Of a stretch of 64,000 nt of DNA, positions 19,230-45,955 are shown in pieces. The position numbers and the translations under genes were made by a program. Source of the stretch: Verrucomicrobiota bacterium. Its GTDB lineage: Bacteria > Verrucomicrobiota > Verrucomicrobiia > Chthoniobacterales > UBA10450. Where the stretch lies: NCBI GenBank assembly GCA_003218375.1, contig QHNH01000028.1:1-64000 (forward strand), in the 5' to 3' direction. Under the pieces are notes generated by a model that was given only the letters and a program-made list of their open reading frames with translations, had not been told where the DNA came from and ran no database searches. Positions within the stretch are counted from its first letter, which is position 1, and each line of letters opens with the position of its first letter.

Positions 19230-19302
19230 TGTAGCAGCGGCCCTGTGGGCCGCTTTGGGAAATCGACGCCGCGCTCGAGCGGCCCGCAGGGCCGCTGCTA
19301 CA
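19230..19302. repeat. TGTAGC...GCTACA palindrome, copy 1
   Basis: Starts TGTAGCAGCGGCCCTGTGGG and ends with the reverse complement (GGGCCGCTGCTACA). Two GC-rich hairpins around a short centre. Lies four bases after the ptsI stop and seven before the stop of the facing nuclease gene, so it may act as a two-way terminator. Confidence 0.85.
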
Positions 19303-19840: not shown

Positions 19841-19916
19841 TGTAGCCGTCGCCCTGTGGGCGACGCGGGAGAGAAGATATTGTTTGTTCCCGCGCTTCGC
19901 ATAGCGAAGCGCTACA
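19841..19916. repeat. TGTAGC...GCTACA palindrome, copy 2
   Basis: Left half TGTAGCCGTCGCCCTGTGGG is shared with the copy inside moaA; right half GCTTCGCATAGCGAAGCGCTACA. Two unlike hairpins joined by about 25 bases, with complementary ends. In the divergent gap between the nuclease gene and speA. Confidence 0.85.
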
Positions 19917-40628: not shown

Positions 40629-41699
40629 ATGGAAGATCGATACGGCCATCGCATTTCGTATTTGCGCGTCTCGATCACGGACCGCTGCAACGAGCGCTGC
40701 ACTTACTGCATGCCGCGAGAGTTGCAGGAATGGCTCGCCCGCGAAGACGTGCTCAGCTACGAGGAAACGCTGCGCCTGATCCGGATCGCGGCGGGAATGG
40801 GCGTGTCGAAAGTGCGGATCACCGGTGGAGAGCCGCTGACGCGCCGCGATGTGCTCGGGTTTTTCCAGCAGTTGCCGGCGATCCCCGGCATCAACGACAT
40901 CGGTATCTCGACGAATGGGTCATTGCTGTCTCGCTGTAGCCGTCGCCCTGTGGGCGACGTGGGAGCGGCGTTGCAGGATCTCTCTCACGCTTCGCACAGC
41001 GAAGCGGCTACAGAAGAGAAAACGATGGCGCGGGCGTTGCGCGAGGCAGGCGTAAATTCGGTCAACATTTCGCTCGATACGCTGGACCGCGAAGCTTATG
41101 CGGCAACGACCGGCCGCGATTTTCTGCCTCAGGTTCTTGAAGGAATCGACGCCGCCATCGCCGCGAAGTTCCCGCTCATCAAACTGAATTGCGTCCTGAT
41201 GCGCGGTCGCAATGAGGACCAGTTAATCCCGCTCGCGGAATTCGCCGCCGCGCGCAACCTCATCCTCCGCTTCATCGAGTTGATGCCCGTGAGCCACAGC
41301 GACGTTCTCGATGAGAGCAATTTTTTGCCGATCGCCGAAGCGCGCCGAAATCTCGAAAGCCATTTCGGTCCGCTCATTCCCGAGCCGGGGTTCCGGACCA
41401 ACGGGCCGTCGACCTACTACAAAGTCGCCGGGCGGGAGCAGCGCCTCGGTTTTATCGGCGCGATGACGAACCTGCATTTCTGCGAGAGCTGCAACAAACT
41501 CCGCCTCACCTGCGATGGAAAACTGCGGCCCTGCCTCGGCAGTTATCTCGAGTTCGACATCATGAAAGTAATGCGCGCCGGCGCGACCGACGCGGAGCTG
41601 AGGCGCTTCTTCCTCGACGTCGTCGAACGGAAACCCGAACAGCACGATTTCCGCGAAAACTATCAACCCGGCCGAATGATGGTAGCGATCGGCGGGTGA
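40629..41699 (+). CDS. moaA: GTP 3',8-cyclase MoaA carrying a 78-base palindromic insertion
   Basis: 356 residues (family ~330). Radical SAM enzyme making 3',8-cH2GTP, first step of molybdenum cofactor synthesis. N-terminal 4Fe-4S cluster Cys20, Cys24, Cys27 (DRCNERCTYCMP), ITGGEPLTRRD, and the second cluster Cys285, Cys288 and Cys302 (FCESCNKLRL...RPC). Ends MMVAIGG, the conserved GG tail. After ISTNGSLLS a palindrome of exactly 26 codons (40935-41012) is inserted before the conserved ALREAGVNSVNISLDTLD. The frame is open throughout. The insert lies in a surface helix region and may be tolerated. Overlaps moaC (GTGA). Confidence 0.92.
   Translation: MEDRYGHRISYLRVSITDRCNERCTYCMPRELQEWLAREDVLSYEETLRLIRIAAGMGVSKVRITGGEPLTRRDVLGFFQQLPAIPGINDIGISTNGSLLSRCSRRPVGDVGAALQDLSHASHSEAATEEKTMARALREAGVNSVNISLDTLDREAYAATTGRDFLPQVLEGIDAAIAAKFPLIKLNCVLMRGRNEDQLIPLAEFAAARNLILRFIELMPVSHSDVLDESNFLPIAEARRNLESHFGPLIPEPGFRTNGPSTYYKVAGREQRLGFIGAMTNLHFCESCNKLRLTCDGKLRPCLGSYLEFDIMKVMRAGATDAELRRFFLDVVERKPEQHDFRENYQPGRMMVAIGG
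40935..41012. repeat. TGTAGC...GCTACA palindrome inside moaA, copy 3
   Basis: 78 bases: TGTAGCCGTCGCCCTGTGGG at the left (same as copy 2), GCTTCGCACAGCGAAGCGGC then TACA at the right. Length divisible by three and free of stop codons in the moaA frame. Confidence 0.9.
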
Positions 41700-42160
41700 A
41701 ACATCTCACCCACATCGCCGCCGATGGCCGCGCGCAGATGGTCGACGTCTCGGCCAAGCCGTTGAGCGCCCGGACCGCGGTCGCGAAAGGACGAATCACA
41801 CTGGCGAAAGAAACGGTCGCATTGGTCCGCAAAAACGAGATCGCCAAAGGCGACGTCATCGCGACCGCGCGGATCGCTGGGATCCAGGCGGCGAAACGAA
41901 CCGCGCACATGATTCCGCTCTGTCACACCATTCCGCTCAGCGAAGTGAAGATCGACATCGAGTTGTCCGCCGCCGCCGCCGAAGTCACCTGCTCCGCGCG
42001 AACCGTTGCCCAAACCGGCGTGGAAATGGAAGCGCTGACTGGCGTCACGGTCGCGCTGCTCACGATCTACGACATGTGCAAGGCCGTGGATAAACAGATG
42101 GTGATTCGCGACGTGCGGTTGGTCGAAAAAACAAAGCGCGCCGTGAGTCGTCGCGAATGA
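41696..42160 (+). CDS. moaC: Cyclic pyranopterin monophosphate synthase
   Basis: 154 residues. Converts 3',8-cH2GTP to cPMP. Motifs: LTHIAADGRAQMVDVSAKP, KGDVIATARIAGIQAAKRTAHMIPLCHTIPL (catalytic and substrate region), GVEMEALTGVTVALLTIYDMCKAVDK. GTG start overlapping moaA. The stop is TGA in the word GAATGACGAAG of the next repeat. Confidence 0.95.
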   Translation: MKHLTHIAADGRAQMVDVSAKPLSARTAVAKGRITLAKETVALVRKNEIAKGDVIATARIAGIQAAKRTAHMIPLCHTIPLSEVKIDIELSAAAAEVTCSARTVAQTGVEMEALTGVTVALLTIYDMCKAVDKQMVIRDVRLVEKTKRAVSRRE

Positions 42161-42300: not shown

Positions 42301-42783
42301 ATGCAGATCCCCGTTGGTATCATCACCGTTTCCGATCGCGCGACGACCGGTGAATACGATGATCTCGGCGGACCGGCGCTGAAAGAGGCGGCGCAGAAAT
42401 ATGGCTGGCAAGTCCTGAGCGAGGCGATCGTGCCGGATGAGACGGCGCGGATCCAGGAAACGATCCGCGCATTTTCCGACCAGGGATGTGCCTTGATCCT
42501 GGCGACCGGCGGAACGGGCGTCGCGGTCCGCGATGTAACGCCGGAAGCGATTCGCGCGATCATGCGCGTGGAAATTCCCGGGTTCGGCGAGGCGATGCGG
42601 CGCGAATCGATGAAGATCACGCCGAACGCGATCTTGTCGCGCAGCCTGGGCGCGATCGTCGAGCGCTCCCTTGTGATTGCGCTTCCCGGCAAACCATCAG
42701 GCGCGGTCGAGTGTCTCAGCTTTGTCGTGGGCGCGATTCCGCATGCGGTGGCGCTCGCCCAACGCGTCCCGACTTCGTGCTAA
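42301..42783 (+). CDS. mog: MogA/MoaB family molybdopterin protein
   Basis: 160 residues. Activates molybdopterin by adenylylation or binds it. Motifs: VGIITVSDRATTGEYDD, DETARIQETIRAF, LATGGTGVAVRDVTPEA (the MPT-binding TGGTG) and LPGKPSGAVECL. Third gene of a moa cluster; separated from moaC by a 130-base palindrome. MogA versus MoaB type not decided. Confidence 0.92.
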   Translation: MQIPVGIITVSDRATTGEYDDLGGPALKEAAQKYGWQVLSEAIVPDETARIQETIRAFSDQGCALILATGGTGVAVRDVTPEAIRAIMRVEIPGFGEAMRRESMKITPNAILSRSLGAIVERSLVIALPGKPSGAVECLSFVVGAIPHAVALAQRVPTSC

Positions 42784-42801: not shown

Positions 42802-42877
42802 TGTAGCCGCTTCGCTGTGTGAAGCGTCGGAAGGCGCCGACGATTGTCCTCGCGCCGCCCACAGGGCGGCGGCTACA
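42802..42877. repeat. TGTAGC...GCTACA palindrome, copy 4
   Basis: TGTAGCCGCTTCGCTGTGTG and GAAGCG at the left; CGCCGCCCACAGGGCGGCGG and CTACA at the right. Here the two hairpin types are in the opposite order to copies 2 and 3. Between two convergent genes. Confidence 0.85.
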
Positions 42878-45889: not shown

Positions 45890-45955
45890 TGTAGCCGGGA
45901 TCCGATGATCCCGGCCGCTCAAATGCCATGACCGGGATCACCGATCCCGGCTACA
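45890..45955. repeat. TGTAGC...GCTACA palindrome, copy 5
   Basis: TGTAGCCGGGATCCGATGAT and CCCGGC, then ACCGGGATCACCGATCCCGG and CTACA. Between two genes on the plus strand. Confidence 0.8.

Follow-up and report, generated by a model that had tools for sequence, protein, structure and literature searches.

An in-frame GTAG REP dimer within a verrucomicrobial moaA gene and repeat-filled protein loops among its relatives

The stretch of DNA analyzed here (the window, 64,000 nt; G000:C22:1-64000) comes from a verrucomicrobial draft genome of 3.96 Mb in 52 contigs and carries a moaA gene (40629..41699, + strand) that codes for a GTP 3′,8-cyclase of 356 aa, an in-frame insert included. It is followed on the same strand by an ORF at 41696..42160, which we take to be moaC-like, and a further ORF at 42301..42783, presumably moaB/mog-like. 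The protein scores above the cut-off of the curated MoaA model (TIGR02666, 331.7 bits against 284.05) in two matching stretches, the better one spanning residues 131-356, and also matches PF04055 and PF06463; in a phmmer comparison with 1tv7, the match is interrupted at residues 103/135. The cysteines of both Fe-S sites, namely the N-terminal radical-SAM triad C20, C24 and C27 (40686..40709, +) and the C-terminal triad C285, C288 and C302 (41481..41534, +), are invariant in an alignment (A1) of 43 MoaA proteins, made up of the window protein and those from 42 of 80 loci. With the curated model, the two cysteine triads and the MoaA fold (see below) all present, the window protein is a MoaA, and the insert-bearing enzyme presumably still works. 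The description given in an earlier sequence-only reading, of 78 bases at 40935-41012 forming 26 stop-free codons in frame in moaA, with conserved MoaA sequence on both sides and both iron-sulfur sites intact, is borne out. For comparison we used a panel of 83 genomes of the same family (G-numbers, with G000 for the window's genome; L-numbers denote loci), 76 of which have a MoaA match. The window's genus has eight members, G000 and G020 to G026, among them G020 (palsa_1414, PLCM01) and G024 (AV89, QHMY01); every genome used is a draft assembly, and the named sisters are MAGs.

The insert, CSRRPVGDVGAALQDLSHASHSEAAT (40935..41012, +; MoaA residues 103-128), is bounded by TGTAGC...GCTACA, begins at codon phase 0 and folds into two hairpins; it is absent from MoaA of five sister genomes and from nearly all of the 43 aligned proteins. 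Its first REP (40936..40959, +) has a GTAG tag (40936-40939) beside an 8-bp hairpin, CGTCGCCC/GGGCGACG, with a 3-nt loop, and its second REP (40988..41011, -) is in the opposite orientation, with an 8-bp hairpin, CGCTTCGC/GCGAAGCG, and a CTAC tag, giving two inverted REPs on either side of a variable spacer. The sequence-only reading had taken TGTAGC...GCTACA as the element ends; this holds as a pattern, but the usual ends are longer, as the consensus of 234 element ends in the genome is TCTTC-TGTAGC...GCTACA-GAAGA. The moaA copy has the right GAAGA extension (41013..41017, +) and lacks the left TCTTC, and no target-site consensus beyond these extensions was found in the flanks of the 234 ends. 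The architecture is that of a GTAG REP dimer (REPIN), the class to which we assign the insert because of its hairpins and tags, its copy number and the presence of a RAYT gene flanked by REPINs.

The strict pattern TGTAGCN{50,75}GCTACA has 5 copies in the window, where 0.01 would be expected (0 of 100 shuffles reach 5), and 132 matches dispersed over many contigs of the genome, against 31 for a backward control pattern. We studied 117 distinct copies, out of these 132 matches, with their surroundings: 113 have both hairpins, 3 have one and 1 has none. The other four copies in the window are intergenic, as had been read from the sequence, but they are not all one element with the moaA copy. The one at 19841..19916 (+; pattern and hairpins) has both arm types of the moaA copy (CGTCGCC/CGCTTCG), that at 42802..42877 (+; pattern and hairpins) has the arms CGCTTCG/CGCCGCC, and those at 19230..19302 and 45890..45955 (both +; pattern) have the different arm types AGCGGCC and CGGGATC, respectively. 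Given these several arm types, the copies represent several related families. The genome has 12 Y1_Tnp matches, and at one of these loci (L042) a Y1_Tnp gene with an HUH motif is flanked by two REPINs, of which one has both arm types of the moaA insert and the other has one arm type in common with it; such an arrangement is named REPtron in PMC3733652. The proximity and the shared arms indicate that the REPIN is probably moved by this RAYT. Further Y1 transposase genes (L040, L043) have different GTAG hairpin families (GTAGAGGCGCTTG; GTAGCGGCGGTG) close by, and several REP systems seem to coexist in the genome.

The AlphaFold model of the window MoaA (pLDDT 82.1, pTM 0.84) superposes on the solved 1tv7_A with a Z of 33.2 and an rmsd of 2.9 over 312 residues. 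Residues 107-127, with a strand (90-95) before them and a helix (133-139) after, have a pLDDT below 50; accordingly, the modelling that the sequence-only reading had proposed predicts the insert to be disordered, in the loop that links the TNG strand to the following helix. Between G000 and G020, 13 of the 78 bases of the insert differ. The insert has a nonsynonymous divergence of 0.15 and the remainder of moaA one of 0.031 (Fisher p 9e-4), which fits a weakly constrained loop; the synonymous divergence of the insert is 0.23, compared with 0.54 in the rest of the gene (p 0.008), which is not what simple neutrality would predict and may reflect hairpin maintenance or conversion between copies.

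Within the genus, G020 and G024 have the insert at the same codon as G000, with the same orientation and arm types, and in the other five members (G021, G022, G023, G025 and G026) the site has no insert and a loop of 7 residues. These comparisons dispose of the two conditions under which the sequence-only reading was to be abandoned, an assembly error (the insert is at this codon in two sister species with assemblies of their own) and an ancient part of MoaA (five members of the genus lack it). G020 retains a loop of the native 7 residues after the insert and has an extra in-frame duplication. The insert is open in all three carriers, and its lengths differ by whole codons; therefore, the indels that followed insertion came as whole codons. 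When the loop columns are omitted, a single-gene tree of 28 MoaA proteins rejects a clade uniting G000, G020 and G024 (p-AU 2.8e-5), and the 5 insert-bearing rows require 4 changes on it. Further, a member of another genus (G002, L010) has a REPIN with other arms in the same MoaA loop, 2 nt further along and in another reading frame. This loop is the sole place with inserts of more than 4 aa among the 43 aligned proteins, and the chance that two more hits fall within 2 nt of the first, if spread evenly over 1001 nt, is ~2.5e-5, a rough figure that ignores how the cases were found. Because the tree rejects a single clade of carriers and a different REPIN lies 2 nt away in G002, the sequences point to a MoaA loop that has probably been hit at least three times; gene conversion between lineages could alternatively have carried the insert. 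As a separate observation, the moaA of G007 (L009) has a loop 9 residues longer, the DNA of which is palindrome-like and not of the GTAG type.

Very probably, then, a non-autonomous GTAG REPIN landed in moaA, kept the frame in a tolerant loop and persists as nearly neutral protein-coding DNA. A Y1/HUH transposase (RAYT) of the same genome would move the REPIN as single-stranded hairpins, and one such REPIN would have landed in moaA, where the frame survived because a strand usually has two of its three phases open and the length of this copy divides by three. Extra residues would be tolerated in this loop, which joins the TNG strand to the helix that follows, so that MoaA function would be kept; the loop has probably been filled again in other lineages, either through selection purging insertions at other places in moaA or through a preference for the site. 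A single insertion could instead date back to the ancestor of the genus and have been excised precisely from several of its lineages. This would account for the codon, orientation and arm types common to the three carriers and for the 7-residue loop after the insert in G020, which has the length found in the empty copies; moreover, IS200/IS605-type single-strand transposases are capable of precise excision. Nevertheless, on the MoaA tree this history costs the genus a gain plus four or more losses, against two gains otherwise, the spacer in G024 does not obviously match the one in G000 and G020, and the different REPIN in the loop of G002 indicates that repeat hits do happen, making the single insertion unlikely.

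Exaptation of the insert for a new MoaA function would agree with a frame kept through whole-codon indels in three species and with synonymous sites less diverged than expected; however, at nonsynonymous sites the insert has diverged about five times as much as the rest of MoaA, the model has no structure in the insert and most relatives do without it, and we regard this alternative as highly improbable. A decaying moaA pseudogene with an accidental frame would be in keeping with the damage that insertions usually do to genes, but the rest of the gene has a dN of 0.032 against a dS of 0.95 between G000 and G020, all Fe-S cysteines are retained and there is no second full-length MoaA among the G000 matches listed, leaving very little room for this view. 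An artefact of assembly or binning is hardly credible at all: repeats do tend to be misassembled and this draft genome has 52 contigs, but an insert of the same type at the same site recurs in the PLCM01 palsa_1414 and QHMY01 AV89 assemblies, with the frame held despite diverged sequence. Thus, the best reading is a selfish insertion that was filtered for frame and loop position and is, as we infer, nearly neutral.

The moaA copy is one of six among the 117 copies in the genome that lie in frame within a longer ORF. The five others are in tgt (TIGR00430, 497 bits), thiC (NF006763, 1007 bits), a uvrA fragment (NF001503, 533 bits, below whole-protein cut-offs), a helicase-like gene (PF00271) and an ORF without a family match; one in-frame locus (L057) was entered by hand for its long ORF, not by score. 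By inspection, no gene-breaking copy was seen among the 117, and none of the 15 listed copies with same-frame coding flanks and a closed element reads, by eye, as one interrupted gene. Across both strands of the 117 copies (234 in all), phases 1, 2 and 3 are open in 170, 127 and 0, respectively, and the length is a multiple of three in 45 of 117 copies. These phase and length counts suggest that most random insertions within genes would be destructive and that the survivors have passed selection.

Several of the genes with in-frame copies have such a repeat-filled loop in other members of the family. A Tgt match is present in 70 of the 83 genomes, and we read the Tgt loop before FGIVQG in 31 family loci, including L245 and L248, which have internal stops and were left out of the Tgt alignment (A2) together with the G024 tgt, which is in two contig pieces. 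The stem score of the loop exceeds the best of 30 shuffles in 13 of these 31 loci, exact self-match runs of at least 12 at a short shift occur in 11 (a count made without a shuffled control), and one or the other signal is found in 21. Within the genus, the loop is filled by GTAG REPINs (G000, G026), a long palindrome (G022, G024) or tandem heptamers (G020, G021, G023). The long palindrome has 78 matches in G022, 74 in G020 and 76 in G024, whereas the remaining five genomes have between 1 and 11 each, in counts that may include both-strand matches, so that the places are fewer than the matches. The loop after AIRE in ThiC has about five kinds of filler across seven genus members (the thiC of G024, L139, not being among them); a second repeat-filled loop is seen after DDGYLS in these thiC genes (L132-L138). 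By alignment to solved homologues, on which the loop positions rest in both proteins (the AlphaFold model of Tgt has a mean pLDDT of only 41.6), the Tgt loop has 27 residues in the query versus 8 in the solved Tgt, and the ThiC loop has 37 versus 6. In UvrA, the loop after LNYR has a REPIN common to G000 and G020; G026 has a variant of it, G024 has a tandem type, and the loop is short in four members.

Two further observations concern the uvrA genes of this genus. That of G020 has the HPERS palindrome in its open frame (G020:C27:100036-100130), between the two aligned parts of the gene. That of G000 is split (L075, G000:C21:33201-35174 and 36312 onward) into frames of 677 and 1222 aa, compared with 1690-1993 aa in the sisters, and the break comes after another coding repeat (ARASRAGFGAS...GEGAIASTRGACAPQ) with many copies in the genus.

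The palindromes in the same MoaA loop of related species suggest that a few permissive loops serve as landing sites. We lean towards the view that the loops of MoaA (after TNGxLLxR), Tgt, ThiC and UvrA are standing landing sites in this verrucomicrobial family, filled in frame repeatedly and independently (independence having been checked by tree for MoaA only) by unrelated intergenic repeats, including several GTAG REPIN types, the long palindrome, which is of the HPERS type, and tandem heptamers, which would make such repeats a continuing source of protein segments at fixed places. The literature searched, outside which many subscription papers lie, yielded no report of shared landing loops. 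The moaA locus allows the passage of non-coding mobile DNA into protein to be studied by comparison, as some relatives have the site empty, others have diverged copies and one has a different element there. If the loops are recurrent landing sites, one could ask directly what determines where such new segments appear, whether the transposase favours certain targets or selection acts on what the protein tolerates, and the loops could be used as ready-made permissive insertion sites.

In the REPIN/RAYT systems of Pseudomonas and E. coli, two inverted REPs form the unit and a Y1/HUH transposase is encoded nearby; the moaA insert is like them in both its inverted REP pair and the nearby Y1/HUH transposase. 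The sequence-only reading had likened the insert to the Rickettsia palindromic elements (RPEs), which lie in frame within conserved genes that tolerate them (as described in PMC10969869 and PMC2229807). The likeness stands for a mobile-type palindrome read in frame in a protein gene; the architecture, in contrast, is that of a GTAG REPIN, and the RPE label was rejected, as RPEs, according to PMC2229807, are single long stem-loops of 105-146 bp with their own ORF and have no GTAG two-hairpin organization, against the 78 bp and two short hairpins here. REPs are called extragenic in PMC8049555, whereas six of the 117 copies here read as in coding frame. That such an element can become protein-coding DNA, as had been proposed, was already known for REP dimers: the sections seen of PMC3733652 (BMC Genomics 2013) describe REP monomers and dimers inside ORFs in many species, with dimers or grouped repeats encoding 20-30 aa, and recB genes of X. 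campestris and X. oryzae with different REPs at about the same site. Those sections report that intragenic GTAG repeats are most numerous in the verrucomicrobium Opitutus terrae, where both uvrA genes are included, and, like the moaA insert, these intragenic REPs combine a GTAG tag with a hairpin and occur as dimers within ORFs; that text mentions neither moaA nor molybdenum. The moaA insertion is therefore of a kind already published, Verrucomicrobia included, and relative to what these sections of PMC3733652 cover, the repeated filling of one loop across genera, the tree test and the several unrelated repeat types at such loops are contributed here.
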